The position numbers and the translations under genes were made by a program. Source: a virus. From it: a stretch of 29,414 nucleotides of DNA. The DNA lies in the IMG/VR virus record IMGVR_UViG_3300020129_000306, positions 1-29,414 of that record, one strand, 5' to 3'. The notes under the pieces are model-generated. The model ran no database searches. It had not been told where the DNA came from and saw nothing but the letters and a program-made list of their open reading frames with translations. Position 1 is the first letter of the stretch. Every line of letters begins with the position of its first letter. Of this stretch, positions 1 to 26,200 are shown piece after piece.

Positions 1-147
1 CGATCTATTCTCCGCCGCTCCGCACGGGCGAGTCGTAGCGATCGACTGCCTGCCAACGCCTCGATGATGGGCCAACGGGGCACCGGACCCGAAGGTTGCG
101 GTGCCCTCTGCTCGTGCTCGATTGGAGACGAGTGGCGGCCGGATCAT
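1..147 (-). CDS. Partial leftward gene, reading frame uncertain
   Basis: The left edge cuts this gene. An ATG at 147-145 overlaps the TAA of the gene upstream (TAATG), and that frame stays open to the window edge, giving about 49 residues with no recognisable family. A competing frame from a GTG at 83-81 reads VPRWPIIEALAGSRSL, which resembles the start of small helix-turn-helix proteins seen in actinobacterial phages (an RWPIEPLL-type opening). The coupling favours the first reading and the protein character favours the second. The sequence to the left is needed to decide. Confidence 0.3.
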   Translation of the reverse strand, partial: MIRPPLVSNRARAEGTATFGSGAPLAHHRGVGRQSIATTRPCGAAENRS

Positions 148-419
148 TACCCCCGCAGGTTGTACTCGAACAAGTGGAAAACGAGCTGACCCTCTCGGAT
201 CTGAAACGTACCGAGATGCGTGAGCTTCTCTGGTTCTGGTACCGGATGCCCGGTGCCTAGCAGCACGAAGCGGCGTGTCGCTCTGGGAGCCTCAGGGTCG
301 AGTAGAAACCAGCACTGCGGAGATCCGTGTTGGGCTTGTACGGATAGAAACCTCGCTCCGACGGGCAAGTCCAACGTGAAATTCGACGGCGGGACAGGGA
401 ACTTCCAGATTGTGTGCAT
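147..419 (-). CDS. DUF7352-like phage protein
   Basis: The 90-residue product begins MHTIWKFPVP and carries the run LSVQAQHGSPQCWFLLDP followed by LLGTGHPVP, the pattern I recall for the small phage family DUF7352 (IWKYPL, then LSVQ.Q.G.P..W..VDP, then GTGHP). The function of that family is unknown. The start at 419 is chosen because its ATG overlaps the upstream TGA (TGATG); a TTG one codon earlier is less likely. It is a late member of the leftward chain. The family assignment is from memory of the pattern. Confidence 0.75.
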   Translation of the reverse strand: MHTIWKFPVPPSNFTLDLPVGARFLSVQAQHGSPQCWFLLDPEAPRATRRFVLLGTGHPVPEPEKLTHLGTFQIREGQLVFHLFEYNLRG

Positions 420-589
420 CAAACCTCTCTTTCTTTAGCTTCTCGTTTCGCCTGCTCCACCATCTCCTCAATGATGTCTTGCAGGATCAGCTTCCAGTCC
501 TCCACGGTGAGCGGCCCCTCTACGTAGAGTCCGCGCTCGCTGTCGGGACGCCCGATCTCCTTGCCGGCTTGTGAGTAGCGCCAGGTCAC
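419..589 (-). CDS. Small unknown protein, 56 aa, GTG start
   Basis: This short gene starts with GTG at 589-587, overlapping the TGA of the upstream gene (586-588) as GTGA, and ends with a TGA that overlaps the next ATG as TGATG. The product starts VTWRYSQAGKEIGRPDSERG and ends in a charged helix (LILQDIIEEMVEQAKREAKE). The perfect coupling on both sides and the good amino-acid composition are the reasons to call it. No family was recognised. Confidence 0.7.
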   Translation of the reverse strand: MTWRYSQAGKEIGRPDSERGLYVEGPLTVEDWKLILQDIIEEMVEQAKREAKEREV

Positions 590-837
590 AGGCCTTCTCC
601 TCTCCGCGCACGCTTCCGAGCGGTTCCTTCACCGTCGAGATACGCGACGATCTCTCGCGTCGACCCCGCCCAGCAGAAGTAACACATCGTCCTGAGTCGA
701 TGAAACGGCGTGTTTTGATTCCTCTTGCCGGGCATCCGATCGATGCGTGCGCGCAACGCGAGAAGCGCGTCGAAGATGTCTAGTTCTTCTCTGACGTGCA
801 GCCCCAACGCTGCGATGGCGGCTTCCGCGCAGGTCAC
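586..837 (-). CDS. Unknown phage protein, 83 aa
   Basis: The start is taken as the GTG at 837-835, which overlaps the upstream TGA (GTGA). A longer reading of the frame would run back through the neighbouring gene. The product has an acidic helix (LHVREELDIFDALLALRARI), a central MCYFCWAG with two cysteines three residues apart, and a basic tail (ARKRARRGEGL). The single CxxC could bind metal only with other ligands, so I do not call a zinc finger. No family was recognised. Confidence 0.65.
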   Translation of the reverse strand: MTCAEAAIAALGLHVREELDIFDALLALRARIDRMPGKRNQNTPFHRLRTMCYFCWAGSTREIVAYLDGEGTARKRARRGEGL

Positions 838-1031
838 GGTTCGACCGCCAGCAACTTCTCGACGAACTTGAACCCGGCGTTCGTAAGCCGAACGAATCCT
901 TCCCATTGCGGGTCTTCTTCGATCAACTTGAGCCGGAGAAGGCGCTTATTCGCGAGATCGAAACCGTATGGGACTCGGGTGATCTCACCGATATGGCAGT
1001 CGATGAGCAGCTTCAGGTCGGTGAGCTTCAC
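834..1031 (-). CDS. Winged-helix-like small protein, 65 aa
   Basis: The GTG start at 1031-1029 overlaps the upstream TGA. The body reads LANKRLLRLKLIEEDPQWEG then FVRLTNAGFKFVEKLL: a helix, a LxRLKLIEED turn and a strand-turn-helix of the form V.LT.AG...... This is the usual look of the recognition-helix-plus-wing part of winged-helix DNA-binding proteins. The same LxRLKLIExD pattern recurs in the product of 6379-6645, and a weaker one in 18639-18875. DNA binding is inferred from pattern only. Confidence 0.6.
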   Translation of the reverse strand: MKLTDLKLLIDCHIGEITRVPYGFDLANKRLLRLKLIEEDPQWEGFVRLTNAGFKFVEKLLAVEP

Positions 1032-1207
1032 GCTCGTCTCGCCTTCTCCCGCCGAAACTCGAGCACGTCCTGAACGCTGACGTCGAACGCTCGGCTCGCG
1101 TCCATCGCGGTCTGGTAGTTCGGCGAGAGCAACGAGACGTTGTGTTGCATGACGGCGGACACGAACGCGACCGCCTCGGCCTTGGTGTGGATGTCGATCA
1201 GGTTCAT
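1028..1207 (-). CDS. Unknown small protein, 59 aa
   Basis: The ATG at 1207-1205 overlaps the TGA of the SprT-like gene (ATGA). The stop overlaps the next GTG (GTGA). The product begins MNLIDIHTKAEAVAFVSAVM and ends with a basic helix (EFRREKARRA). A longer frame upstream of 1207 runs through the protease gene and is not used. No family was recognised. Confidence 0.65.
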   Translation of the reverse strand: MNLIDIHTKAEAVAFVSAVMQHNVSLLSPNYQTAMDASRAFDVSVQDVLEFRREKARRA

Positions 1208-1971
1208 CTCTTTTTCTCCCCTTTGTATCGGCGCACCTTCGCGCGCCACTTCTTCTCGATGGTCTCGGCGCGTCTGAGTCGCGCCACAGCCCTCGCAAGC
1301 ATCTTCGTAGCATGTGCGGCGCGCTTCTCGACGAGCTTCTTGGAGAGCTCCGCGCGCGACGGCTTCGGCGCTTTCGGCGCTGGAGGAAAAAGATCGACTC
1401 CTCCGAGCGCGATCTTCTTTTCGAGCTCCGTCATGATGAGCCGGTCCATGGCGTACGCCGCGTTACGCTCCTCCCCGCGGTTCTTCCCGGTAAGAAGCGG
1501 GACGTCGATCCCCCAAAGCTCGCTAGCGGCTCGACGGAGCGTCAAACGGAAGCGTTCTCCGTGCCACTCACGGGGAGGGCAAGCGCAATGGCACATCTCG
1601 TGGACAAGAACTTCGAGAACGTGCTCCGGCTTCGCCGCAGGCCCGAATGCGACACGGATTTTCCGTGAGCGAGGCTTCGCGTGCCCGCTGAAGTGCCCGT
1701 TCGCCTTGTGCCCGACCGTCAGTTCGATCGCTCCGAGGTTCCCGACGAAGGGCGGGCGCTTTCGGTACGCCGCGAAGGCGAGATCGAGATCGATCCCAGC
1801 AGCGACGTTCCCGAGCGCGCGCCGCCGTGCGACATCTTTCCGCTCGGCGGGGAGCGTTTCGCAGCGGTAGCAAGGCGCTGGGATCCAAGGCCCCGGCGTC
1901 TCGCGAGACGCTCCAACAGAGCGCCCGCACTTCGAGCAACGGAAGTCAGGTGCCGCTGAATCGTCACTCAT
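1204..1971 (-). CDS. SprT-like zinc metalloprotease
   Basis: The 255-residue product has the zinc-protease signature HEMCH at residues 124-128 within LVHEMCHCACPPREWHGERF. H137 in the following WHG is the likely third zinc ligand, as in SprT/SPRTN-type proteases. An N-terminal zinc ribbon is formed by C12/C15 and C34/C37. The C-terminal 60 residues are basic and probably coiled (ARAVARLRRAETIEKKWR). SprT relatives cut proteins crosslinked to DNA in eukaryotes; in phages the substrate is unknown, so that role is an inference. The ATG lies one base after the upstream TAA. It is the largest gene of the leftward chain and may have to be co-translated with its neighbours. Confidence 0.85.
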   Translation of the reverse strand: MSDDSAAPDFRCSKCGRSVGASRETPGPWIPAPCYRCETLPAERKDVARRRALGNVAAGIDLDLAFAAYRKRPPFVGNLGAIELTVGHKANGHFSGHAKPRSRKIRVAFGPAAKPEHVLEVLVHEMCHCACPPREWHGERFRLTLRRAASELWGIDVPLLTGKNRGEERNAAYAMDRLIMTELEKKIALGGVDLFPPAPKAPKPSRAELSKKLVEKRAAHATKMLARAVARLRRAETIEKKWRAKVRRYKGEKKR

Positions 1972-1972
1972 G

Positions 1973-2389
1973 TTAGCCGTATCGCTCTTCTCCGAGGAGC
2001 GCGAGCTGCAAGACGATGTCGTAGCTCGCAGCGTCGGCGTCCTCGTACCAGCCGACGCCCCAGCGCTTCACACCCTCTTCCCAGGCGCGCAGCGCCGTGG
2101 ATCGATCGATGCGAAACCAGTGCGGAGGGAGCTCGGCACCTGAACGCCAAGCGGCGAGCGCCTCTTTGGACTGCGGCTCCTTCCCGTGACGGCACTTCTC
2201 GTCGTCTTCCCAGACGAGCCAGCCGCGCTCGTTGTCGTGTTCGACGCCTCGGAGCCAGTACCCGGCGTAGCTGGTCAGGAACAGATCGGAACACTGCGTC
2301 ACGTAGTTGATCCAGAACTCGGCGACCTGAACGGTGAGCGAGAACGTGTGCGGGATCGTCTCTTCTTGTTTTTCTGCGGTTGAGGTCAT
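1973..2389 (-). CDS. Conserved-looking phage protein of unknown function, 138 aa
   Basis: The start is the ATG at 2389-2387, overlapping the upstream TGA (ATGA), so the product begins MTSTAEKQEE. It is rich in Trp and Tyr (FWINYVTQ, GYWLRGVEH, RGWLVWEDDE, WGVGWYED) and ends DIVLQLALLGEERYG. That ending resembles a widespread uncharacterised phage family whose members finish in IVQ.ALFGE..YG. No catalytic motif is visible. Confidence 0.65.
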   Translation of the reverse strand: MTSTAEKQEETIPHTFSLTVQVAEFWINYVTQCSDLFLTSYAGYWLRGVEHDNERGWLVWEDDEKCRHGKEPQSKEALAAWRSGAELPPHWFRIDRSTALRAWEEGVKRWGVGWYEDADAASYDIVLQLALLGEERYG

Positions 2390-2679
2390 GGCTTCTCCGG
2401 TTTGGTTGCTTTCTGGCAGCACCGTTCTGGCGAACGACCGTGCTGCGAACATTCGTAGAAGGGTTCGTAGATGTCATCTTTCGGGTACAGGTGAACGTAG
2501 AGCTCTCCGGGACCGCGCAGCGCTTGGAGCGCCTCTGCGTACCGGACGACGGACATGATGCCGATGGCGGCGTCGCGCGAGGTGTTGTCGTCGTCCTCGA
2601 TGAACCGAAGGCGCTCTGCGATGGCTTTGAGCAGATCCAGGTGTGCCCGCTCGATTGCATAGAGGATAGGTGCCGGCAT
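2386..2679 (-). CDS. Unknown phage protein, 97 aa
   Basis: The ATG at 2679-2677 lies one base downstream of the upstream TGA. The product begins MPAPILYAIERAHLDLLKAI, continues with a charged helix and ends in a Cys/His-containing stretch (YECSQHGRSPERCCQ). Its stop overlaps the next start (ATGA). No family was recognised. The C-terminal Cys/His residues could bind metal but the spacing is not a standard one. Confidence 0.65.
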   Translation of the reverse strand: MPAPILYAIERAHLDLLKAIAERLRFIEDDDNTSRDAAIGIMSVVRYAEALQALRGPGELYVHLYPKDDIYEPFYECSQHGRSPERCCQKATKPEKP

Positions 2680-2680
2680 T

Positions 2681-2917
2681 TCAGCTCTCTTCGAGGTCGT
2701 CGGCGCCGGCAGCCCCGATCGCGGCGCGCACATTCTCTTGCGTAGCTTTGCGCCCGAGGTCATAGGCGGCGCTCGCAACAGCGTCCCACCCCCTGGAGAA
2801 GGCGTAGCGCATCGTACATTCACTCTCGAAGGGGAGCTCGAAGCCGCGCTTGCGGCAGTCAGCTTTCTGCTCCTCGATGAAGCGGTTCTCGGACGCCTTG
2901 GCCCGCTCATAAAACAT
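2681..2917 (-). CDS. Unknown phage protein, 78 aa
   Basis: The ATG at 2917-2915 shares a base with the upstream TGA (TGATG). The product is helical and charged: MFYERAKASENRFIEEQKAD at the start and RAAIGAAGADDLEES at the end. It has two cysteines at about positions 21 and 34 (ADCRKR, ESECTM). No family was recognised. Confidence 0.65.
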   Translation of the reverse strand: MFYERAKASENRFIEEQKADCRKRGFELPFESECTMRYAFSRGWDAVASAAYDLGRKATQENVRAAIGAAGADDLEES

Positions 2918-3210
2918 CACTTTTTGTTCCTTTCCAAGATCGCGAATGCCTCCGCCGTGCGCGCTCGCGCTTCCTTGAACCGATCTCGAGCCGGGGACGA
3001 AGCCGCAGGCATCGACGACGTGGACCTTCGCGGCGTGACATGCCCTCGTAGACGGTCGAGCTCCACCCGAGCCGCCCCGATGGCCGCCGGACTCTTGTCG
3101 GAGAGCAAGCGGTGGCGCATGTCCGCGCTCATGACGTTGAGACAGCGTCCGCAGAAGACCTGCCCCGCAGGGATGGCTTTTCCGCAGCCGGTCGCTCGGC
3201 AGGTGCTCAC
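2917..3210 (-). CDS. Zinc-ribbon phage protein
   Basis: The GTG at 3210-3208 overlaps the upstream TGA (GTGA); a longer frame would run into the neighbouring gene. The N-terminus holds a four-cysteine ribbon: CRATGCGKAIPAGQVFCGRC (C4, C9, C20, C23). The pattern FCGRC followed by a basic helix resembles small phage zinc-ribbon proteins that read FCGRCWR.VP..LR. The rest is basic and Ala/Ser-rich, ending in a helix. Zinc binding is likely; the partner (DNA, RNA or protein) is unknown. Confidence 0.65.
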   Translation of the reverse strand: MSTCRATGCGKAIPAGQVFCGRCLNVMSADMRHRLLSDKSPAAIGAARVELDRLRGHVTPRRSTSSMPAASSPARDRFKEARARTAEAFAILERNKK

Positions 3211-3548
3211 GATGACCTCCCGGCGAGCTTGGCAGCCCACTTCCGAGCGAAACCCGCACGTCGACCTGGGTTGATCTCGGTCTCAGGGTGCTGCGCGATG
3301 GCGCGCAACGCCTGTTCGAGATCTAGCCCGCGCGAGTTCCAGGACCGCACGAGCATGAGCAGGTTTCGAGCCGCCAGCTCTCCGGGCGTCGGATGGCGCC
3401 CAGCGTGGGCGTTGATCGCGACGTCGATCAAGAGCGCCGGAGAGGGCCCTCCCGGCTCCTCGATCTTGCGGACCCACGCCGGCATCCCGTGGAGCTGCTT
3501 CGCGCGGTAGAACGCGACGTCGGCCTTCGTGGGGAACCTCACGATCAC
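3207..3548 (-). CDS. Unknown phage protein, 113 aa
   Basis: The GTG start at 3548-3546 overlaps the upstream TGA (GTGA). The product begins MIVRFPTKADVAFYRAKQLH and has a basic C-terminus (NPGRRAGFARKWAAKLAGRS). The central LLIDVAINAHAGRHPTPGEL and ARNLLMLVRSWNSRGLDLEQ segments look like amphipathic helices. No family or catalytic motif was recognised. Confidence 0.65.
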   Translation of the reverse strand: MIVRFPTKADVAFYRAKQLHGMPAWVRKIEEPGGPSPALLIDVAINAHAGRHPTPGELAARNLLMLVRSWNSRGLDLEQALRAIAQHPETEINPGRRAGFARKWAAKLAGRSS

Positions 3549-3718
3549 CGGTCTCCGTCGAGCTCGGGGTCGTAGGGGCGCACCTTGCCGTAGCGCTGGT
3601 CTTCTTGGAGGTCGCGCCAGGCCTGCTCGGCTTGGCTTTTCGAGGCGAAGCGCTCGACGTAGGTGAACGCCCCCGGGGCGGACACTTCGAGAACGTACGG
3701 TTGTCGGTGACGGGCCAT
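3545..3718 (-). CDS. First gene of the leftward chain, 57 aa
   Basis: This short gene starts at ATG 3718-3716 with a GGAGCG Shine-Dalgarno-like stretch just upstream (GGAGCGAAAATG) and ends in a TGA that overlaps the next GTG. The product begins MARHRQPYVLEVSAPGAF and continues with a helix SKSQAEQAWRDLQEDQRYG. It is the promoter-proximal gene of the leftward block and the only one there with a clear separate ribosome binding site, which fits a chain translated by coupling. Function unknown. Confidence 0.75.
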   Translation of the reverse strand: MARHRQPYVLEVSAPGAFTYVERFASKSQAEQAWRDLQEDQRYGKVRPYDPELDGDR

Positions 3719-3758
3719 TTTCGCTCCTTGGGGGGTCGGACGGAGCCTATCCCGCCAG

Positions 3759-3844
3759 TATTCACCCTACCAACGCTTTTGTATGTACAACGTGGGTGAA
3801 AGAGGTTGACGGTGAATAACGTTCGGGTAGATTACGTCAACCTC
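3759..3844. promoter_or_regulatory. Divergent control region with nested inverted repeats
   Basis: Between the leftward chain and the rhomboid gene there are three perfect inverted repeats: GAGGTTGACG at 3802-3811 with CGTCAACCTC at 3835-3844 (10 bp arms), TATTCACC at 3759-3766 with GGTGAATA at 3811-3818 (8 bp), and TTCACCC at 3761-3767 with GGGTGAA at 3794-3800 (7 bp). A rightward promoter TTGACG (3806-3811), 16 bases, TAGATT (3828-3833) lies inside the first one. It would start transcription only a few bases before the rhomboid ATG at 3847, which has no Shine-Dalgarno, so a leaderless mRNA is possible. The repeats look like operator sites; the promoter is inferred. Confidence 0.5.
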
Positions 3845-3846
3845 AC

Positions 3847-4404
3847 ATGCCGCTCGTGACCCTTTTTCTCGTAGCCGCGAACATCCTTGCCTACGGCCTC
3901 GAACTGGCTTCCGGGGGGCGGTCGTTCTGCGAGGCCTACGGCCTGATCCCGGCCCACTTCATGAAGTCCGGCGCCGTCGCGCCCCTGTTCTCGAGCCTGT
4001 TCCTGCACGACCCGGCAGGGCTCTCCCACCTCGCCGGCAACATGGTCGCCCTGGCCGTTTTCGGTGTGGTTGTAGAACGAGCCCTCGGCGGCTTCCGGTT
4101 CTTGGGCCTCTACCTCGCCGCTGGCGTCCTCGGAGGCCTGATGCACGTCCTGACCGCCTCCGGGGCGACGGACCCCCTGGTAGGCGCCTCCGGAGCCATC
4201 TTCGGGGTCTTGGCCGTGGCGGGCGTACTGCGCCCCCGCCTCATGGGGTTCGTCGCCGCCTTCGTTGGGCTCAACATCTGGAACGCCTTCACCGGCGGCG
4301 GCGGAGACGTCTCGTTCGGCTGCCACATCGGTGGATTCTGCGCCGGCTTCCTCGTCGTGCTGCTGTTGAAGGCGTGCGACAGCGAAGTTCTAGAGGCCGC
4401 ATGA
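3847..4404 (+). CDS. Rhomboid-family intramembrane serine protease
   Basis: The 185-residue product is a complete compact rhomboid. It has several hydrophobic segments, the oxyanion/structural motif HLAGN (H61, N65), the nucleophile motif GASG with S115, and the catalytic histidine H160 in FGCHIGGF near the C-terminus. Rhomboids cut transmembrane helices within the membrane, so it should act in the host inner membrane. Its length matches a core six-helix domain with no extra soluble domain. It is first in the rightward operon and its TGA overlaps the next ATG (ATGA). Codon use looks richer in GCC, GGC and CTC than its neighbours, which may mean a recent transfer. Its target is unknown. Confidence 0.93.
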   Translation: MPLVTLFLVAANILAYGLELASGGRSFCEAYGLIPAHFMKSGAVAPLFSSLFLHDPAGLSHLAGNMVALAVFGVVVERALGGFRFLGLYLAAGVLGGLMHVLTASGATDPLVGASGAIFGVLAVAGVLRPRLMGFVAAFVGLNIWNAFTGGGGDVSFGCHIGGFCAGFLVVLLLKACDSEVLEAA

Positions 4405-4718
4405 AGCGAGAACGCAGTATTACGCTCTTCCGCGTCCACATCGCGCCCAGCGAGTCCGACGGCGAAGGCGAAGACCACGACGAGTGGTTCGGAACCAAGA
4501 GAGAAGCCCTCGCGCGGCGCAAGGAGCTCATCGACGAGAACCCGAACCTCGAAGAACACCGCTTCGGGGAGGACTTCCAGGTCGATCGCGTCGAATTCGC
4601 ACCCATCCCGAAGCGCGCGTTGCTGCTTCGGGTCCTCAACGGTGACGGGATGTACCGATCTTCGATCGTGCGCCCACCTCACACACGGCCTGAAAGGGTC
4701 GCAGAGAGCGATCGATGA
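4401..4718 (+). CDS. Unknown phage protein, 105 aa
   Basis: The ATG at 4401 overlaps the rhomboid stop (ATGA), so the two are translationally coupled. The product begins MKRERSITLFRVHIAPSESD, has an acidic stretch (GEGEDHDEWFG) and a charged helix (TKREALARRKELIDENP), and is soluble. No family was recognised. Coupling to the protease makes it a candidate partner or regulator, but nothing in the sequence shows this. Confidence 0.65.
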   Translation: MKRERSITLFRVHIAPSESDGEGEDHDEWFGTKREALARRKELIDENPNLEEHRFGEDFQVDRVEFAPIPKRALLLRVLNGDGMYRSSIVRPPHTRPERVAESDR

Positions 4719-4945
4719 CCCAAGACGAGCCTGACTTTCGCTACTGGTGGACGGTCGAGGAGTGGGGGCGAGACAAGCGCACCGCCACCATCGCCAGGAT
4801 CAGAGAGAAACAACGCGACGAGTGGCGTTGGTTCGTATTCGACGCCGTAGGCAGCAAGCTGCTCAAAGAAGGCACCAGCACGAGCCAAAAAGGCGCGCGC
4901 GCGGCGTGCCGCAGGTTCGTCCGCAAGCTCCCGAGGGCCGCATGA
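4715..4945 (+). CDS. Unknown small Trp-rich protein, 76 aa
   Basis: The ATG at 4715 overlaps the upstream TGA. The product begins MTQDEPDFRYWWTVEEWGRD and ends with a basic helix (GARAACRRFVRKLPRAA). The pattern WTVEEWG.......TA.IAR......W.W.VFD.. looks like one compact beta-rich domain followed by a helix, seen in many small phage proteins of unknown role. It ends in an ATGA overlap with the next gene. Confidence 0.6.
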   Translation: MTQDEPDFRYWWTVEEWGRDKRTATIARIREKQRDEWRWFVFDAVGSKLLKEGTSTSQKGARAACRRFVRKLPRAA

Positions 4946-5157
4946 AGGCAGAAATCGTAGATCTGGGCGACGCAGGTGAACGCATCATCGTCGGCAAAAT
5001 CAAACCGATCGCCGATCGAGCCTTCTGTCTAGAGATCCATCGCGGCGAGACGGGCAAGTTCGCCAACATGCACGTGCTCCTCACTCGAGAAGAGCTTCAC
5101 GAGCTAGGCGAGGCCGTTCAATCGCTTCTGGAAACCAAGGAGAGTACACGCACGTGA
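4942..5157 (+). CDS. Unknown small protein, 71 aa
   Basis: The start is the ATG at 4942, overlapping the upstream TGA. The product begins MKAEIVDLGDAGERIIVGKI, has strands (RAFCLEIHRG) and ends with a helix (REELHELGEAVQSLLETKES). It is soluble and no family was recognised. The stop overlaps the next GTG (GTGA). Confidence 0.6.
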   Translation: MKAEIVDLGDAGERIIVGKIKPIADRAFCLEIHRGETGKFANMHVLLTREELHELGEAVQSLLETKESTRT

Positions 5158-5585
5158 AAAATGACCAAACCCAAGCCTCCAACCGACCTCTCACAGCCGT
5201 CGACACCATGATGCGCGACCTCGCCGAGAGCCTCCGAGACGTTCTCCAAGAAACGGACGACGCCTACATCGAGCGAGAGCCCGAAGATGCCTTCGTCGAC
5301 CTCGCAGCGCGGCTCGTTCATCGTCTTTCAGACAAGATCACGCTCGTACCGACCACGCAGCACAAGCACAACGAGGCCTCGAGACGGATCTTCGACATTT
5401 TCACCACCTGGATGCAGATGCAGCCGGATCGCGCGTGCGTCACGCGGCTCGACGAGGCCTCGGGAAGGTTCGAGGCGACCGTGATCAGCCCCAACGGGAT
5501 CCAGGGGTACTTCCAGGGCGGCGACGTCCGAGACGCCTACGCGCAGATGGCGCAAGTTCTGCTTTTTGAAGGAGGCGCGATATGA
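5154..5585 (+). CDS. Unknown phage protein, 143 aa
   Basis: The GTG start at 5154 overlaps the upstream TGA. The product begins MKNDQTQASNRPLTAVDTMM and is mainly helical and acidic (LRDVLQETDDAYIEREPEDA), with a C-terminal segment reading TVISPNGIQGYFQGGDVRDA. No catalytic motif is apparent and no family was recognised. It ends with an ATGA overlap to the ribbon-helix-helix gene. Confidence 0.6.
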   Translation: MKNDQTQASNRPLTAVDTMMRDLAESLRDVLQETDDAYIEREPEDAFVDLAARLVHRLSDKITLVPTTQHKHNEASRRIFDIFTTWMQMQPDRACVTRLDEASGRFEATVISPNGIQGYFQGGDVRDAYAQMAQVLLFEGGAI

Positions 5586-5797
5586 GTCCTCCGAAAGGAA
5601 CCGCGATGGCACGCGCCAAGAAGAACGCGAAAGAAGAACCGACCAACGTGAAGGAGCCGAAAGAGGAAGTTGTCAACGTGCGCCTCACGTCGTCGCAGAA
5701 AGAGAAGTTGGCCGGAGTTGCCGCTCGCAAAGGGATGGGGCTGAGCACGTGGTTGCTCTTCCTCGCCCTCGAACACGCGGCGAAAGAAGCACAGTGA
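5582..5797 (+). CDS. Ribbon-helix-helix DNA-binding protein (CopG/Arc-like)
   Basis: The 71-residue product has a basic N-terminus followed by VVNVRLTSSQKEKLAGVAAR and GMGLSTWLLFLALEHAAKEA. That is one strand, helix A, the G.S...(W/I) turn and helix B, the typical ribbon-helix-helix fold, which binds operator DNA as a dimer. The start is the ATG at 5582 that overlaps the upstream TGA; an internal ATG nine codons in is possible. It sits in the rhomboid operon, so the inverted repeats at 3759-3844 are plausible targets, which is an inference. Confidence 0.7.
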   Translation: MSPPKGTAMARAKKNAKEEPTNVKEPKEEVVNVRLTSSQKEKLAGVAARKGMGLSTWLLFLALEHAAKEAQ

Positions 5798-6177
5798 CCG
5801 TGAAGGACTTGAAACCAGGCACCTACACGATCAAGTCGACCGATCTGAAGTTCGACGGAAAAGGCCAACCTCGACTCAAACCGGACGCCAACCCGATACC
5901 AACCATCCCGCGTAAGGCGCGATCGATGAAACGTCTCCGCAAAGACCCGTTGGAAGATCACCCGCGTGCCGCCGAGACGCGCCGAATGATGCTCGAGGCG
6001 CGCATCGACGACGAGCAAGAGGTCATGGACCTTCAGTCGAGTGAGCTCGCGTGCGACATCGCTGACGGGTGGGCTAAAAACCCACGCCGCGGAGAGCTGC
6101 ATCCGGGCCTGGAAGACAATCTCGATCGTCTGGAGCTCATCACGCGCCCAAGCGCGATGCGAAAGGTGCGGCCGTGA
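5794..6177 (+). CDS. Unknown basic phage protein, 127 aa
   Basis: The start is the GTG at 5794, overlapping the upstream TGA (GTGA); a second GTG at 5800 is possible. The product begins with VTVKDLKPGTYTIKSTDLKF, continues through a basic Pro-rich linker (IPRKARSMKRLRKDP) and a helical C-terminus (RRMMLEARIDDEQEVMDLQS). No family was recognised. It is followed after one base by the next ATG. Confidence 0.6.
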   Translation: MTVKDLKPGTYTIKSTDLKFDGKGQPRLKPDANPIPTIPRKARSMKRLRKDPLEDHPRAAETRRMMLEARIDDEQEVMDLQSSELACDIADGWAKNPRRGELHPGLEDNLDRLELITRPSAMRKVRP

Positions 6178-6178
6178 A

Positions 6179-6382
6179 ATGAATGCTCCCAACGGGCTCC
6201 CGGAAAAGATCTGGCTCGTGCGTTGGCCGAACGGCACGCAACACTTCGTCACCAAAGAGCTGCTCGGCGGCGCCTCCGAATGGGCGAAGGGCACGAACGC
6301 AACAGTCGTCGAGTACAACTTCGGGGCGGTCGCGTACTCACCTCCGCCTCCGCCGAAGAAAGACGGAGGCTCCACCCCATGA
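6179..6382 (+). CDS. Unknown small protein, 67 aa
   Basis: The ATG at 6179 lies one base after the upstream TGA. The product begins MNAPNGLPEKIWLVRWPNGT and ends with a proline run (PPPPPKKDGGSTP). The IWLVRWPNGT.HFVT pattern suggests a short beta hairpin. No family was recognised. Its stop overlaps the next ATG (ATGA). Confidence 0.6.
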   Translation: MNAPNGLPEKIWLVRWPNGTQHFVTKELLGGASEWAKGTNATVVEYNFGAVAYSPPPPPKKDGGSTP

Positions 6383-6645
6383 GCCGGCGAGCAACAACGT
6401 TCCGCCCCGACCAACTCACAGGCCCGCAGCGGGTCGCGCTCTTCTTTCTGCGAGACAAGACTCTGGCTGGAGGAGCGTACGTGTACACCATGACGGCAAC
6501 GCTCAGCACATTGCGTGTGCTGTACCGGCTCAAGCTCATCGAGGGAGACTTAAGCAAAAAGTTCAAAGGCCACAGATTCGTTATGATCACACCTGCGGGA
6601 CGAGACGCGATCTACGAGCTACCCCAACCATCCAGAAGCCGATGA
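6379..6645 (+). CDS. Winged-helix-like small protein, 88 aa
   Basis: The start is the ATG at 6379, overlapping the upstream TGA. The product has TLSTLRVLYRLKLIEGDLSK followed by RFVMITPAGRDAIYEL, which is a helix, a turn and a wing in the order expected of winged-helix proteins. The segment YRLKLIEGD matches LRLKLIEED in the leftward gene at 834-1031, so the two may be distant paralogues. It is the last gene of the rightward rhomboid operon. DNA binding is inferred from pattern. Confidence 0.6.
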   Translation: MSRRATTFRPDQLTGPQRVALFFLRDKTLAGGAYVYTMTATLSTLRVLYRLKLIEGDLSKKFKGHRFVMITPAGRDAIYELPQPSRSR

Positions 6646-6659
6646 CTCCGAGCCGCGGT

Positions 6660-6673
6660 GAGCGCGCGCGCTC
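6660..6673. repeat. Perfect 14-bp palindrome between convergent genes
   Basis: GAGCGCGCGCGCTC lies between the end of the rightward gene (6645) and the end of the leftward gene (6683). It can form a short GC hairpin on either strand but lacks a following T run, so it is not a standard intrinsic terminator. It may simply help stop convergent transcription. Confidence 0.35.
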
Positions 6674-6682
6674 CGTCGTCGT

Positions 6683-7012
6683 CTAGGCCCGGTGCGTACC
6701 TTCGACTTCGCGTGCCTCTCGATCGGCAGTGCGCTTGTCGAGCCACATGAGCGCTTCTTCGAGCTTCGTGAGCGCGATAGCGTTCTCTCGGCACGCGAAC
6801 TTGCCGCCGTTCGCCGTCTGGTAGAAACGGATCCGTCCGATCGACGCCGCGATCACGCCTTCAACGAAAGCGCCGTTCGGTTCCTTGCGATCCTCACCGC
6901 GCCAGAGCGGACCGTCCTGCCAACGGATCTCGATCCCAGTACCAACGGACTCGCCGCCAGTAGGGTTTCCGCTCTCGTCCGTCCTATGCGTCTCCGTGAT
7001 TTTCTGTCTCAT
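6683..7012 (-). CDS. Phage protein of the 'FACREN...EGTH' type
   Basis: The 109-residue product has a variable N-terminus (PTGGESVGTGIEIRWQDG), then NGAFVEGVIAASIGRIRFYQ, and the C-terminal pattern KFACRENAIALTKLEEALMW followed by LDKRTADREAREVEGTH. That C-terminus is a frequent phage signature. It resembles the helical hairpin found in the cyclic-nucleotide sponges Acb2 and Tad1 (a ..AI.HLEEA.MW.N.. helix), so a counter-defence role is possible. This link is my inference from the helix pattern. The ATG at 7012 has a GGAG about ten bases upstream, and the gene ends in TAG. Confidence 0.7.
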   Translation of the reverse strand: MRQKITETHRTDESGNPTGGESVGTGIEIRWQDGPLWRGEDRKEPNGAFVEGVIAASIGRIRFYQTANGGKFACRENAIALTKLEEALMWLDKRTADREAREVEGTHRA

Positions 7013-7030: not shown

Positions 7031-7366
7031 TCATTCCAGATCCGTCGGATCTCCTCGCGTGACGTGCGCTTTCCCGCCAACAGATTCGACCAGGGCTCCG
7101 AGCGAGCCCATCAACATCTTCTCGCGCTCAGGTTGAGCGGCGATCATGAAGCGCGCTCGCTTCTCCGAAGGCCACTTCATGTTTGGCCTACAACACGAGA
7201 AGTCAGGGCAGCACTCGTGTTTGGAGTTCGGGCAGACCGATTTGCCTTCCACCCACATCTTGAGCTGCTCGTCCGGCGTAGGGGCCCCAGGGGGCGTCCA
7301 CGTCCGGAGGCACCGGACGTCCCCACACTGCCGGTTGCCGCCCGGGTGTCGAGGGCAACCGCTCAT
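7031..7366 (-). CDS. Cysteine-rich phage protein with CCPDFSCC motif
   Basis: The 111-residue product carries N-terminal cysteines (CPRHPGGNRQCGDVRC) and the run CPNSKHECCPDFSCCRPNMK, followed by a helix with KMLMGSLGALVESVGG. The CCPDFSCC core followed by a MLMG.LG helix is a pattern I recall from uncharacterised phage proteins. The number of cysteines argues for a metal-binding fold. The start ATG at 7366 overlaps the upstream TGA (ATGA). Function unknown. Confidence 0.7.
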   Translation of the reverse strand: MSGCPRHPGGNRQCGDVRCLRTWTPPGAPTPDEQLKMWVEGKSVCPNSKHECCPDFSCCRPNMKWPSEKRARFMIAAQPEREKMLMGSLGALVESVGGKAHVTRGDPTDLE

Positions 7367-7653
7367 CGCCCACGCCGTGTTTGAGCCCTAACCTTCTGAA
7401 ACTCTCGTCCGAGTGTCTTCAAGCCTCCGATGAAATCGGGACTCGAGACCACGTCGGCCACGTTCTTCACAGCTCGAACGGTTTCGTTCTCGAGGATCCC
7501 GTCGAGCGCCGGAAGCGTGAGTAAATCGAACTCGCGGATGATCTTGATCGCCCGCACGGCGAAGGCGTTTCGCTCCTTCTCGTCCACGCTGGCGTCCAGC
7601 GCTTGTTCGATGAGCTTCTTCGCCTTGGCGCGCTTCTCGTCCTTCTTACTCAT
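7363..7653 (-). CDS. Unknown helical basic protein, 96 aa
   Basis: The ATG at 7653 overlaps the upstream TGA and the stop overlaps the next ATG. The product begins MSKKDEKRAKAKKLIEQALD and is mostly charged helix, with a basic end (FQKVRAQTRRGR). The opening is like that of small phage proteins annotated as DUF2786-like (KI..LL..A......E...A..RA..I...), but only the first part is suggestive, so I leave the family open. Confidence 0.6.
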   Translation of the reverse strand: MSKKDEKRAKAKKLIEQALDASVDEKERNAFAVRAIKIIREFDLLTLPALDGILENETVRAVKNVADVVSSPDFIGGLKTLGREFQKVRAQTRRGR

Positions 7654-7939: not shown

Positions 7940-8215
7940 CTATCTCAGATCGTTCTCTTCGTCGTCGTCTTCGTCGTCTTCGTCGCCGCCCTTGTTCTTC
8001 TTCTTCTTGCGACCGCGACGAGCCGCACCGCCCTCGAAGCGACTCTCGTATTCCTCGAGCATCGCATCGGCGTACCCGGCGGCGACATCTGCCATGGTGT
8101 CGACGAGATCATCGAGTTCGTCCTCGTCCTCGATCTCCAAAGGCATCTCGAATCGAGACATCGCGTCGCGGGTCCAACCGACCCACATCTTCTGCCGCTC
8201 TTCCTTCGTCGCCAT
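7940..8215 (-). CDS. Acidic-tailed protein, 91 aa
   Basis: The start is the ATG at 8215-8213 (a GTG two codons earlier is possible); no Shine-Dalgarno is evident. The product has a Trp-containing helix near the start (RQKMWVGWTRDAMSRFEMPL), an acidic helix, a lysine-rich patch (RRGRKKKKNKGG) and an aspartate/glutamate tail (DEDDEDDDEEN). Acidic tails are common on phage proteins that compete with or mimic DNA. It ends in TAG followed in frame by the zinc-knuckle gene. Confidence 0.65.
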   Translation of the reverse strand: MATKEERQKMWVGWTRDAMSRFEMPLEIEDEDELDDLVDTMADVAAGYADAMLEEYESRFEGGAARRGRKKKKNKGGDEDDEDDDEENDLR

Positions 8216-8237
8216 GAACACGGAAGTACAACGATCG

Positions 8238-10292: not shown

Positions 10293-10625
10293 TCACTCAG
10301 GATGCTCTTCGCCGAGAAACTTCACTGCGTGCGAGTCGAGGCACACGACTCTCATACCGAAGCCGAACGTTGGCGTACCGTGCAAGACGGCGCACTTGTC
10401 GAACTCCAGGTCGCGTCGACGCAACCACTCCTCTTGCGCCGTGTGCTCACGCATCCGATCTTCGATCGGTTGAGGTGCGGGCGCGTCTACTTGCGGCCTT
10501 GTCGGCGTCGGCGCCGCGACGTGCGGATGCGTGTGCTCGTGCCAGCGTTGTTGGCCGTAGGTGACACCCAGCGCGACGATCGCGCCGAGCACCATCCCGG
10601 TGAACAAGTTCTTGAAGTTCACCAC
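10293..10625 (-). CDS. Membrane-anchored protein, 110 aa
   Basis: The product begins MVNFKNLFTGMVLGAIVALG, a single hydrophobic segment near the N-terminus, followed by a His-rich and Pro-rich linker (HEHTHPHVAAPTPTRPQ) and a soluble tail with two cysteines (DKCAVL, RVVCLD). The layout suggests one membrane span with the rest outside or inside the inner membrane. The GTG at 10625 directly follows the upstream TGA; a second GTG one codon later is equally possible. No family was recognised. Confidence 0.65.
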   Translation of the reverse strand: MVNFKNLFTGMVLGAIVALGVTYGQQRWHEHTHPHVAAPTPTRPQVDAPAPQPIEDRMREHTAQEEWLRRRDLEFDKCAVLHGTPTFGFGMRVVCLDSHAVKFLGEEHPE

Positions 10626-16324: not shown

Positions 16325-16551
16325 GCAAGAAAGGGAGACAACGGAGGCGCGCCAAGAAGCACAAGGCGGCGACCGCGGCGCTAGTAGGCATTACGCCCGA
16401 GCAGTTCGATGCTCTTCCAAAAGCGGAGCGAGCGGCGCTGCATCGACGCAAACACGCCATCGACGCGGAGAGAGTCGGTAGCTTCGGTCTCGCCGATCGG
16501 CTCCACGAACCGGTTAGCGCCGACCCAGAAGAAAGCGAGCGCGCCCCGTGA
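16321..16551 (+). CDS. Small basic protein, 76 aa, TTG start
   Basis: The likely start is the TTG at 16321, overlapping the TGA at 16322-16324; no ATG fits. The product begins LSKKGRQRRRAKKHKAATAA, continues with GITPEQFDALPKAERAALHR and ends ADPEESERAP. The basic N-terminus suggests nucleic-acid contact. The end is similar to that of 15190-15540. No family was recognised. Confidence 0.55.
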   Translation: MSKKGRQRRRAKKHKAATAALVGITPEQFDALPKAERAALHRRKHAIDAERVGSFGLADRLHEPVSADPEESERAP

Positions 16552-16556
16552 AGCAA
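16508..16556 (+). repeat. Gene-junction repeat, copy 2
   Basis: This is the second copy of the junction repeat at 15497-15546. It again spans the end of one gene (…SERAP, stop) and the GTG start of the next (GTGAAGCA). The two copies differ at about ten positions by eye and keep the reading frame, so they look like duplicated gene ends. Confidence 0.6.
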
Positions 16557-16670
16557 TGGGTGATGGCGAACCGCGAATACCTGAGAATTGTCGCGCGGGT
16601 TGTTTTGCTACTGGTTGTTGCGTTTGCGTTCTCGGCGCTAATGACTATTGCGGGAGTAGAACCACCATGA
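16548..16670 (+). CDS. Single-span membrane peptide, 40 aa
   Basis: The GTG at 16548 overlaps the upstream TGA (GTGA). The product begins VKQWVMANREYLRIVARV and continues VLLLVVAFAFSALMTIAG, a single hydrophobic helix of about 20 residues with basic residues before it. It ends in an ATGA overlap with another membrane protein gene. Small phage membrane proteins of this size can act in lysis, exclusion or protein anchoring, but nothing here chooses between them. Confidence 0.6.
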   Translation: MKQWVMANREYLRIVARVVLLLVVAFAFSALMTIAGVEPP

Positions 16671-17425: not shown

Positions 17426-17832
17426 TCGCGTGGCTGCTCAAGAAGGTCGAAAACATCTACGGCCGCATCCTCTACTGGAAGTGGGACATGGAATCTGCGG
17501 CAGCGGCACGTCGCTTCCAAGGCTGCCAACACGAACGTACCGTCTTCGTCGACGTCGGCACCGTGGTCGAGAAGTGCTGCGAGTGCTGGGCGCTCAGACT
17601 GCCGAAGCTAGGCACTACCGCCAACGAAGAGGACAGGCCACCCGCAGGCGCGATGGCGTGGTACCCGAATTGCGCTCGGCCTGAGCGCGCCATCCGCGCC
17701 GATCGCGTCGTCTGCGACGGGTTCTACGCAGGCGATGGGTGCGGATGGTCGGGATTTTCAGCGGAGCTCCGCCCGAGCGGGTGCTGCCCGACGTGCGGTG
17801 GCGGACACATCAAAACGGAGATGTCGTCGTGA
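17422..17832 (+). CDS. Double zinc-ribbon protein, 136 aa
   Basis: The ATG at 17422 overlaps the upstream TGA. The product has a hydrophobic, Trp-rich start (MIAWLLKKVENIYGRILYWK), a first cysteine cluster (C35 and H37 with C52, C53 and C55) and a second cluster (C98, C107, C121, C122 and C125 in CCPTCGGG). Two metal-binding modules are likely. Whether the N-terminus touches the membrane is open. No family was recognised. Confidence 0.6.
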   Translation: MIAWLLKKVENIYGRILYWKWDMESAAAARRFQGCQHERTVFVDVGTVVEKCCECWALRLPKLGTTANEEDRPPAGAMAWYPNCARPERAIRADRVVCDGFYAGDGCGWSGFSAELRPSGCCPTCGGGHIKTEMSS

Positions 17833-17921
17833 CCCCCCGTCCTTTTCTGGTGCGGGCCCTGGCGATCGTCTGCGTTCTTCTCGGTTGCCTGATCGGCTAC
17901 CTGATTGCGGGGCGGCTGTGA
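17829..17921 (+). CDS. Single-span membrane peptide, 30 aa
   Basis: The GTG at 17829 overlaps the upstream TGA, and the stop overlaps the next GTG. The product begins VTPRPFLVRALAIVCVLLGC and continues LIGYLIAGRL. It is one membrane helix with Arg on both sides. The strong coupling on both sides supports it being real despite its length. Function unknown. Confidence 0.55.
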   Translation: MTPRPFLVRALAIVCVLLGCLIGYLIAGRL

Positions 17922-22652: not shown

Positions 22653-25238
22653 ATGACCGCGCTGCCCGTCGTTCAAGAATACGACCCTAGGGCAGCCGGG
22701 GCTCGCTGCGATCTCTGTCCGCTCAAGGGCAACAACGTCGTTCCGCCGAAAGCCTCGCCGCTTCCTACGAAGGTGGTGTTCGTCGGCGAGGCTCCGGGGC
22801 GCAAGGAAGAGATCTTCGGAGCTCCTTTCATCGGGCAGACCGGGGCTTTTCTCAAAGGGCTGTGTCGTGAGGTCGACCTCAACATTCTCGAGGCTCACCT
22901 CACGAACGCGGCCTTGTGTCGCTCGAACATCGACAAGGAGAACGAAGAGGCTGCCGTCTGCTGCGCGCCGCGGCTGTTGAAAGAGATTGAAAAGTTCGAT
23001 CCAGAGATCCCCATCGTGACGTTCGGAAAGACCAGCACGCTCAGCGTGCTCGGCGTCCGGAGCATCATGCACTCACGCGGGTTCGTTTGGACGGCGCGAG
23101 AGCTCGATCCAGCCCCCGTCTGGAGCAAAGCGAAGAAGGCGAAGCTCCGCGGAGCGCCGAAGTGGAAGGAGATGTGGCTCAAAGCGCAGATTATCGACGG
23201 CCGGAGCAAGCTCGCAGGTCGCACGGTGCTACCGACCGTTCATCCGGCGTTCGTGCTTCGCTCGGACACGTGGCTTCCGGTATTGAAGATCGATCTCGAT
23301 CGGATCGCTCGCTGGGTACGCGGCGAGCTGACGCACGAGATGCTGCTCGAGAACGGCCCGTACACTGTCGTCTCGAAGCGCAAGGACATCATCCGCGAGC
23401 TCAAGAAGTTCGGGCCGGACATCGACGTCGACGTCGAAACAGGCGCGAGCACAGACGGCGGGAAGGACGGTGCAGATCCCATGCGCAACAGGTTGTTGTG
23501 TGTCGGGATCTCTGACGGTGATCACACGGTCGTCATCTGGCCGTGGAGAAAAACACACGCACCGCTCGTGAACGCGCTCATCAAGCGGTCGAAAACCGTT
23601 GGTATGCACAACGGCTACAACTTCGACCAGATCGTGCTCGACCGAAACGAAGTGCCGTTCGAGGCGTACGACGACAAAGCGCAAGATACGCTCATCGGGC
23701 ACCACACGTTCGCGAGCCACATGCCACAACGTCTCTCGCACGTCGCGAGCTGCTTCGTCGACGTCGGGCCGTGGAAGATCACTTTCAAGCAAGGCACCGG
23801 CGGTGCAACCGAGAAAGGACTCCCGCCTGAGAAGCTCAGCGGTGAGGATCTCTGCAAGTACAACGCGGCCGACGCACGCATCCAAGCGCGCACCAGACGC
23901 GAGATGCGGAAAGATTTGGAATCGGAGCTCGACGTCTACTCCGTCGATCTCGAGAACGCACGACTGTGCCGCAGCATGATCATCGGCGGCATCGGCGTCG
24001 ACGTCGAGCGCCGAACACAACTTTTGGAGGCGATGGATCAGAAAGAGAGCGAGCTTCTTTGGAAAATGAGGAAGCTGCTCCGACGAGCGAAGTTCCATCC
24101 GATGCAGCTCGCCGAAGTGCGCAAAGCGCTCTTCACCATCTTGAAGGCGCCGATCGCGTCCGCCGATCCCACCGAATCTGGGCTCCCGAGCACGTCGCAG
24201 ACCACGCTCGAACGGTTGAAGATGAGCCCGACCCGTGCGGGCCGGTTCGCTGATCTGCTCTTGCAATGGCGCGGCGTCGTCAAGATCAAGAGCACCTACA
24301 TCGTCAGCCAAATCCTCGACAAGCCCTCGAAGAAGACACCTACCGTATCGCGCACGCACTTCAACTGGCGCAGCTACGGCGCAGCAAGCGGGCGCTACTC
24401 GTGCCGTTTGCAGTCGTGCCCGCGCGCTGAGTATCTCAAAGACAAGAGCATCGTGCTCGAGACGCGCGTGCGTGAAGTCTACGTCGCTCGCCCGGGGCAT
24501 AAGCTCATCTACTTCGACCTCAGTCAGGCTGAGCTACGTTTCGCTGCCTACCTCTCCGGCGACAAGACGTTCATCGCCGCGTGCGAGTCCGGCGACGTGC
24601 ACACGGCGATGGCGAAGCTGTTGTTCCCAGCCGAGGCCGAGCTCATCGGTCGAGATCCGAAGGGTGCCGGGAAGCCGTTCAGGGACACCGAGAAGAACTG
24701 CATCTTCGGGTGCATCTACTACGCGGAAGCGGCGACGCTGTTCTCGTTCGTACGCTCGAAGGGCCTGCCCGTAGAGATGCGCGACGTCGTCAAGCTGCAA
24801 GACATGGTGCGCGGTACGTGCAGCGACTACTTCCGGTACGTCGAACGTAACAAGCGGCAGGTCGACAAGGTGGGGTACATGCGCGACGCCCTATCCGGGA
24901 GGATCTCATGGCTCGGCTGGCACGCCGGGTTCCCCGACGTCGCGAACCGTCCGATCCAGGGCGGTATCGCGAGCCTCATGAACGTGCGGCTTCCGAAGAT
25001 CAAGCGTGCGCTGCCGAAAGGTGCGGGCGTGGTTGCTCAGATCCACGACGCGGCCATCACGGAGGTTCCTGATCGTCACGTCGATCAAGTGAAGGCGCTG
25101 ATCAAGAAGACGTGGGAAGAACCGGTGATCATTCCCGCGAATGGTTACGGATCTTCGCTGCGCATCGAGGACGGCGCGCGGCAGTTCGTGATGCCGATCG
25201 AGCTTAAGGTCGGTGACAGGTGGAGTGACTTCGGCTGA
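22653..25238 (+). CDS. DNA polymerase I with N-terminal uracil-DNA glycosylase domain
   Basis: The 861-residue product is the phage replicase. Residues 15-225 are a family 4/5-type UDG, with CDLC (19-22) for an iron-sulfur cluster, VFVGEAPGR (42-50), GAPFIGQTGAF and PTVHPAFVLR (195-203). Residues 250-430 are a 3'-5' exonuclease (D260-V-E262, N323-F-D325, Y403...D407). Residues 600-861 are family A polymerase: DLSQAELR (622-629), R677/K681/F685/Y689 of the O helix, and motif C QIHDA (796-800), with Ala in place of the usual Glu. UDG-PolA fusions are known in some phages such as SPO1. The ATG at 22653 overlaps the TAA upstream. A longer frame to 22503 is not used. Confidence 0.93.
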   Translation: MTALPVVQEYDPRAAGARCDLCPLKGNNVVPPKASPLPTKVVFVGEAPGRKEEIFGAPFIGQTGAFLKGLCREVDLNILEAHLTNAALCRSNIDKENEEAAVCCAPRLLKEIEKFDPEIPIVTFGKTSTLSVLGVRSIMHSRGFVWTARELDPAPVWSKAKKAKLRGAPKWKEMWLKAQIIDGRSKLAGRTVLPTVHPAFVLRSDTWLPVLKIDLDRIARWVRGELTHEMLLENGPYTVVSKRKDIIRELKKFGPDIDVDVETGASTDGGKDGADPMRNRLLCVGISDGDHTVVIWPWRKTHAPLVNALIKRSKTVGMHNGYNFDQIVLDRNEVPFEAYDDKAQDTLIGHHTFASHMPQRLSHVASCFVDVGPWKITFKQGTGGATEKGLPPEKLSGEDLCKYNAADARIQARTRREMRKDLESELDVYSVDLENARLCRSMIIGGIGVDVERRTQLLEAMDQKESELLWKMRKLLRRAKFHPMQLAEVRKALFTILKAPIASADPTESGLPSTSQTTLERLKMSPTRAGRFADLLLQWRGVVKIKSTYIVSQILDKPSKKTPTVSRTHFNWRSYGAASGRYSCRLQSCPRAEYLKDKSIVLETRVREVYVARPGHKLIYFDLSQAELRFAAYLSGDKTFIAACESGDVHTAMAKLLFPAEAELIGRDPKGAGKPFRDTEKNCIFGCIYYAEAATLFSFVRSKGLPVEMRDVVKLQDMVRGTCSDYFRYVERNKRQVDKVGYMRDALSGRISWLGWHAGFPDVANRPIQGGIASLMNVRLPKIKRALPKGAGVVAQIHDAAITEVPDRHVDQVKALIKKTWEEPVIIPANGYGSSLRIEDGARQFVMPIELKVGDRWSDFG

Positions 25239-25572: not shown

Positions 25573-25949
25573 GCCCTGGGCGCATCTTGAAGCTGGAGGA
25601 CGCTCCGAAAGGCGCGCGTCTCATCGTGTGTGGCGGCCGTGAGTACGCGGACCGCGCGCGTGTGTTCGCGGTGCTCGACGTTCTCGCTCCTCGCGAGATC
25701 GCTCAAGGTGAGGCTGACGGCGCCGACAGTTTCGCCAAGGCGTGGGCGGCGAAGAACGGGGTGCCGTGCGCGCGGTTCCCGGCGCTCTGGCGCATCGACG
25801 GGCAGTACACCGCAGGACCGAAGCGGAACAGGCGCATGTTCGCGAACTTCGAGCCTGACGGTACAGTCTCGTTCCCTGGCGGAACCGGAACGACCGACAT
25901 GGAGAACGTCACGATCGACGGCGGAGCTTGGCTGGTGAGGATTCGGTGA
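25569..25949 (+). CDS. DUF2493 / SLOG-superfamily nucleotide-binding protein
   Basis: The 126-residue product reads RLIVCGGREYADRARVFAVL, ADGADSFAKAWAAKNGVPCA, RNRRMF and VSFPGGTGTTDM. This is the DUF2493 pattern: a Rossmann-like fold of the SLOG superfamily with a glycine-rich nucleotide-binding loop (CGGR) and a second loop FPGGTGT. SLOG proteins bind or process nucleotide-derived ligands, including NAD-related ones. The GTG at 25569 overlaps the upstream TGA. Whether it is a metabolic enzyme or a ligand-binding counter-defence protein cannot be told here. Confidence 0.82.
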   Translation: MSPGRILKLEDAPKGARLIVCGGREYADRARVFAVLDVLAPREIAQGEADGADSFAKAWAAKNGVPCARFPALWRIDGQYTAGPKRNRRMFANFEPDGTVSFPGGTGTTDMENVTIDGGAWLVRIR

Positions 25950-26200
25950 TACCGGTTTGCCTTACCGTCGCTGTTGTAGTGCTCGGCGCGTACGCGCTCA
26001 CTTGGCAGACGATGGTTTGGCGCCGAGAAGACGATCGAAGATTGGAAGCGCTCGAAGAGAACGAGAAGATACGGTGCTCAGCCCTCAAGAGCGGGCGTTA
26101 CGGGAACGGTCAAGCGACGATTCGATGTGAGCTAGATGAAGATCACCACGGACCGCACACAGCCAAACTGGAAGGCTACATGCGGGAACATTGGAAGTGA
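25946..26200 (+). CDS. Membrane-anchored Cys/His protein, 84 aa
   Basis: The GTG at 25946 overlaps the upstream TGA. The product begins VIPVCLTVAVVVLGAYALTW, an N-terminal membrane span, then a charged coil and a C-terminal segment (IRCELDEDHHGPHTAKLEGY) with C, H, H and H as possible zinc ligands. The pattern C....DHHGPH.A resembles short zinc-binding ends seen in phage proteins. No family name was assigned. Confidence 0.55.
   Translation: MIPVCLTVAVVVLGAYALTWQTMVWRREDDRRLEALEENEKIRCSALKSGRYGNGQATIRCELDEDHHGPHTAKLEGYMREHWK

Follow-up and report, generated by a model that had tools for sequence, protein, structure and literature searches.

A rhomboid protease gene resident in a lineage of large soil phages, and its candidate membrane-protein substrates

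The window, the whole 29,414-b IMG/VR virus record analysed here, contains an ATG-started open reading frame whose product matches the Pfam family Rhomboid, PF01694, with an E value of 4.9e-22 and 79.1 bits against a cut-off of 22.6 (first entry in Table 1). That cut-off is passed by all 17 members of the viral set described below. The GxSG serine, the C-terminal histidine and HxxxN are all present in the window protein, and H61, N65, G113, S115, G116 and H160 are invariant across the 17. Five to six hydrophobic segments were found in nine of the first ten viral rhomboids by a Kyte-Doolittle scan, which was used for transmembrane helices throughout; the norm for rhomboids is about six such helices. 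By profile and active site the window gene is a true rhomboid, as claimed in an earlier sequence-only reading, which called it complete on the basis of HLAGN, the GASG serine and a C-terminal histidine. A pseudogene reading was rejected, and from the sequence we infer that the phage rhomboid is an active protease. Against the GlpG equivalog model TIGR04239 it scored 14.3 bits, below the threshold of 250. The catalytic histidine adjoins Cys159 (4321-4323), which is kept in most, not all, of the viral rhomboids. C28 and C159 are both invariant in the seven closest relatives, whereas some more distant rhomboids lack them; they might form a disulfide.

Table 1. Positions of the rhomboid gene, its surroundings and related phage features. 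Positions are those of the window unless a locus (L) is given.
Feature	Position	Strand	Remarks
Rhomboid intramembrane serine protease gene, 185 aa	3847..4404	+	PF01694 match; 17-member viral clade, catalytic residues invariant
Codons H61-L-A-G-N65 (HxxxN, oxyanion-side residues)	4027..4041	+	H61, N65 invariant in 17
Codons G113-A-S115-G116, catalytic serine S115	4183..4194	+	G113, S115, G116 invariant in 17
Catalytic H160 codon	4324..4326	+	Invariant in 17
Remaining eight small genes of rhomboid operon	4401..6645	+	Mostly 4-bp overlaps
Divergent leftward operon of small genes	147..3718	-	Includes SprT-like 1204-1971
Promoter-like site TTGACG-16-TAGATT	3806..3833	+	13 nt before ATG
Element GTGAATA-N-TAGATT facing rhomboid	3812..3833	+	Same kind before rhomboid in G011
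Same kind of element (GTGAATACTGGCGGGATAGGCT) facing leftward operon	3744..3765	-	
IIGKGRYAxExYP-like proteins	L013:2135-3580, L018:8253-8744, L018:8948-11371, L013:7010-7576 (minus)		G002
HerA-like ATPase	L029:14931-16745	minus	Relatives in G001, G002, G017, G019, G022, G027

The rhomboid heads a rightward run of nine genes (3847-6645), which bears out its earlier placing in a phage operon. Within this run, relatives of the family encoded at 5154-5585 were found in nine of the first ten records and generally lie a short way downstream of the rhomboid. The promoter-like site in front of the rhomboid is the only match in 3550-6900, where 0.5 would be expected in shuffled sequence. The element GTGAATA..TAGRYT occurs only twice in the window, against 0.1 occurrences expected, and both copies lie in the divergent control region. 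A perfect 9-bp inverted repeat, AGGTTGACG/CGTCAACCT at 3803-3811 and 3835-3843, flanks the promoter-like site in an operator-like arrangement and ends 3 nt before the rhomboid ATG. The rhomboid stands among early-type genes, apart from the structural genes.

Bacterial contamination of the contig was rejected in view of its phage genes and its lineage relatives. Replication and nucleotide genes of phage type lie on both sides of the rhomboid, the phage genes of the window being PolA-UDG, VapE helicase/primase, ThyX-like, Sak4-like, PD-(D/E)XK and dCTP deaminase. Of the 66 genes called in the window with our own codon-usage caller, 45 are related to genes in other records of this phage lineage, 31 of them to genes in G003. 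Since this is a virus record with phage genes and so many lineage relatives, the stretch is not bacterial chromosome, the one circumstance that the sequence-only reading had named as fatal to its interpretation. The product of 22653-25238, encoded near the ThyX-like and dCTP deaminase-like genes, combines a family A DNA polymerase with a uracil-DNA glycosylase domain at its N-terminus.

The 17 viral rhomboids comprise the relatives found in viral scans, with identities of 57-74%, and those in records reached via a capsid-like gene; further viral scans returned the same 28 records and no added independent lineages. They form one clade with support of 94/95, apart from a small outgroup sample of three other phage and five bacterial rhomboids. 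The bacterial relatives found were only about 30-39% identical to the phage rhomboid, and plasmid-borne ones only about 29-39%. The phylogeny suggested as a way to the bacterial donor named none: the viral rhomboids form one old clade, and two scans of bacterial genomes yielded no close relative. The rhomboid-bearing records span a GC content of 59-70%, and the neighbourhood of the gene is kept: the rhomboid stays together with the small family at 5154-5585 and with those encoded at 7363-7653 and at 7940-8221. The dN/dS of the window rhomboid is about 0.26-0.34 against most relatives and 0.47 against one; the viral rhomboid is under purifying selection. On these comparisons the rhomboid is a long-standing resident gene of a large-phage lineage, not a stray host gene.

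The phages that bear the rhomboid are large, come from soil and form a family without cultivated members; the window represents part of the replication side of their genome. Terminal overlaps of 87-127 b are found in G002, G007, G009, G022, G029 and G032, which are therefore read as apparently complete circular genomes of 67-125 kb. Their putative structural module contains three very conserved proteins (102452-105386 in G002, a record of 111,461 b, L013-L018), spike-like proteins and many single-span proteins; each large record encodes about 24-51 proteins with one or two hydrophobic segments. Several different proteins of G002 share an N-terminal motif like IIGKGRYAxExYP and have unrelated C-terminal parts, as if it were a common attachment peptide for exchangeable spikes (Table 1). 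Another G002 product (88780-89388), with host-like lipoprotein features, had no plasmid match.

Profiles for terminase (PF03237 and phrog_2) and portal (PF04860) had no match in the 12 large records, six of them with terminal overlaps, and very divergent versions could escape them; the same profiles do match in control genomes. Because terminase and portal went undetected, the sequences suggest a tailless virion, perhaps one containing a membrane. AlphaFold models of two putative capsid proteins had pLDDT values of 27 and 31, PDB sequence-profile searches with the capsid-like families gave nothing useful, and no phage in the annotated collection encodes these proteins. A HerA-like ATPase with repeated C-terminal HTH-like segments occurs in seven records only; it was rejected as the packaging motor, being absent from the complete G009, G029 and G032. 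The tailless HerA/FtsK phages (PM2, PRD1-like; PMC5894146) likewise have no terminase or portal, carry small membrane proteins beside capsid genes, as here beside the putative ones, and have such an ATPase, here present in some members. They differ in that a jelly-roll capsid could not be demonstrated in the present phages, three complete members of which have no such ATPase. Caution is needed with the tailless reading because known prokaryotic double-jelly-roll viruses have genomes of about 7-18 kb (PMC5894146), compared with 67-125 kb here. The phages may be very large tailless, membrane-containing ones.

The earlier proposal that the rhomboid might process a phage membrane protein is favoured by our results, but through other substrates than the four single-span open reading frames put forward (10293-10625, 16548-16670, 17829-17921 and 25946-26200). 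These were rejected, all being without the motif described below; two are uncalled as genes, one is confined to the window and one occurs in four records. None of the putative substrates is encoded in the window, and the likely ones belong to the structural module, which this fragment does not reach. They are three protein families, F65, F70 and F155, whose C-termini consist of K-[LI]-S-T-G-A-[IM], a transmembrane helix and a tail rich in Lys and Arg, up to 57 aa long. F155 has clear LysM and peptidoglycan-binding domains, and F65 resembles it across the first 55 residues. It is chiefly through their C-terminal anchors that the three families are alike (at about 46-60% over stretches of 25-61 aa), as with sorting signals. 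Strisovsky et al. 2009 reportedly observed a preference of rhomboids for hydrophobic residues at P4 and P2'. Mutagenesis of a rhomboid substrate has shown that a small P1 residue (A, C, S, G) is required, and that P4 and P2' are sensitive, with glycine not accepted there (PMC2941825). The sequence L-S-T-G|A-[IM] fits the published cleavage motif.

The pattern [LIM][ST]x[GASC]x[ILMVF], defined after inspection of the sequences, was scored at the start of the transmembrane helix of F65, F70 and F155. It is present in 29 of 32 such proteins from the 11 rhomboid-bearing records with a structural module and in 0 of 12 from six rhomboid-lacking large records (Fisher 2e-8, uncorrected for descent). 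Among other membrane proteins it occurs at a background rate of 15/598, or about 2.5% (9/358 and 6/240 in rhomboid-bearing and rhomboid-lacking records, respectively). The P1 position of F70 is Gly or Ala in all 11 rhomboid-bearing phages (GLSTGAI, KKLSTGAM, KKISTAGM). It is Leu, Tyr or Pro in five of the six rhomboid-lacking ones, the sixth being without the segment, and the preceding Leu-Ser is mostly kept (GGLSLYAK, TLSLPMK, NLSTPAK, GGLSTLAK; the anchor of G022 reads LSLPMK). There are exceptions: F70 of G032 does not match at its site, F65 of G001 and G002 is a variant, and the rhomboid-lacking G028 carries a partial motif, MSTGAK. When 188 gene families were ranked by co-occurrence with the motif, the rhomboid came first (11/11 against 0/6, p 8e-5) and the next best family reached 9/11 against 0/6; fragments and contigs stopping at the rhomboid neighbourhood were left out. 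G019 and G033 were accordingly dropped as breaks in the match, both contigs ending where the rhomboid should begin. On the capsid-gene tree there are only about two changes of rhomboid state, with which a sign test is powerless, and much of the match is therefore explicable by shared descent.

The catalytic site is intact, the gene is conserved, the motif goes with the rhomboid, and a promoter-like control region of its own precedes the operon that the gene heads. Our preferred explanation, which we regard as about an even call, is that the main substrates of the phage rhomboid are its own virion (or entry) membrane proteins. The C-terminal helix and basic tail would hold the F65, F70 and F155 proteins in the membrane. 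Cleavage by the rhomboid at the Gly-Ala bond, where the helix begins, would free the outer domain from its anchor. The most likely time is early infection. If the membrane of the virion fuses with the inner membrane of the host, the N-terminal domain would become periplasmic and the basic tail cytoplasmic, the N-out orientation that rhomboids cut. Cleavage would then retire the entry apparatus, so that the envelope is repaired or further virions are kept out. Alternatively, the proteins would be processed while virions assemble. No hydrophobic start resembling a signal peptide was seen at the N-termini of the three families, read directly in G002, and an N-in orientation, wrong for a canonical rhomboid, is therefore possible in the producing cell. 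The lack of signal peptides counts against own-virion cleavage, as do the few state changes, the post hoc motif and its exceptions in F70 and F65, the lack of putative substrates in the window and the early-type position of the gene, although that position fits action in the next host.

A rather unlikely alternative has a host membrane protein as the target, for superinfection exclusion, receptor shedding or counter-defence, and STGA as a motif of purely structural meaning in the anchor helix. Small genes of early type, in an operon under a separate divergent control region as is typical of host-takeover genes, would suit such a target, as would the small number of times that the rhomboid state changes on the tree. 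It leaves unexplained why Gly or Ala is fixed at P1 only where the rhomboid is present and why the rhomboid ranks first in co-occurrence, and an accessory gene directed against the host would be less likely to be retained vertically for so long across so wide a GC range. The rhomboid could also clear orphan or excess membrane proteins of the phage, or of the host. Bacterial rhomboids perform such quality control (PMC7232013), and the many small membrane proteins of the large records would provide it with work. These proteins are equally many in the rhomboid-lacking relatives, however, and quality control reads the instability of a helix, for which a fixed cleavage-like motif on three families is unneeded; we consider this role improbable. 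Rhomboids occur in almost all bacteria (14 of 14 control genomes), as would suit a passenger gene of bacterial origin with no function in the phage, but the single viral clade, the invariant active site, dN/dS values mostly near 0.3 and conserved synteny make this highly improbable.

Own-virion cleavage, if true, would mean that a virus processes proteins of its own virion within the membrane, and that intramembrane proteolysis takes part in phage entry or in the maturation of virions. For most prokaryotic rhomboids, to our knowledge, neither role nor natural substrate has been established; a virus in which a rhomboid is accompanied by recognisable candidate substrates makes substrate prediction directly testable. 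More tentatively, a large tailless membrane-containing lineage may carry the first viral system in which a C-terminal signal and a dedicated rhomboid are paired, several peptidoglycan-binding virion proteins being cut off their anchors.

Rhomboids are rare in phage genomes, as had been supposed, and a 2025 review of the rhomboid superfamily makes no mention of viruses or phages (PMC12615303). The window gene is not the first phage rhomboid, one having been annotated earlier in the Stenotrophomonas phages DLP5 and DLP3, where the passages on the gene describe a 'moron' or a membrane-associated serine protease and propose no substrate (PMC5834331, PMC7326821). The rhomboids of DLP5, DLP3 and the Stenotrophomonas phage Summit also have recognisable catalytic elements, but these phages are siphoviruses and their rhomboids are very divergent, outside the clade of the window gene. 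In the substrates of AarA (TatA) and Rhomboid-1 (Spitz) the cleavage site is likewise near the N-terminal end of a helix, with Ala, Cys, Ser or Gly at P1 (PMC2941825), as in the putative L-S-T-G|A-[IM]; those substrates are N-out, whereas the orientation and cleavage of the phage proteins are predicted from sequence.

The cellular rhombosortase/GlyGly-CTERM system (Haft and Varghese 2011, PMC3237569) also combines one rhomboid with several proteins that bear a C-terminal motif, a transmembrane helix and a basic cluster. Its substrates have signal peptides, a GlyGly motif and tails of 0-5 aa, unlike the phage proteins with their LSTGA motif and longer tails. The phage rhomboid scored 20.7 bits against the rhombosortase model TIGR03902, below the cut-off of 84. 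Because both the score and the signal-peptide feature fail, it was not filed as a rhombosortase. In both systems Gly stands at the start of the helix, and enzyme and partners are jointly present or absent, in the phages with few independent changes. The phage pairing thus resembles rhombosortase/GlyGly-CTERM by analogy, as a viral counterpart outside that family.
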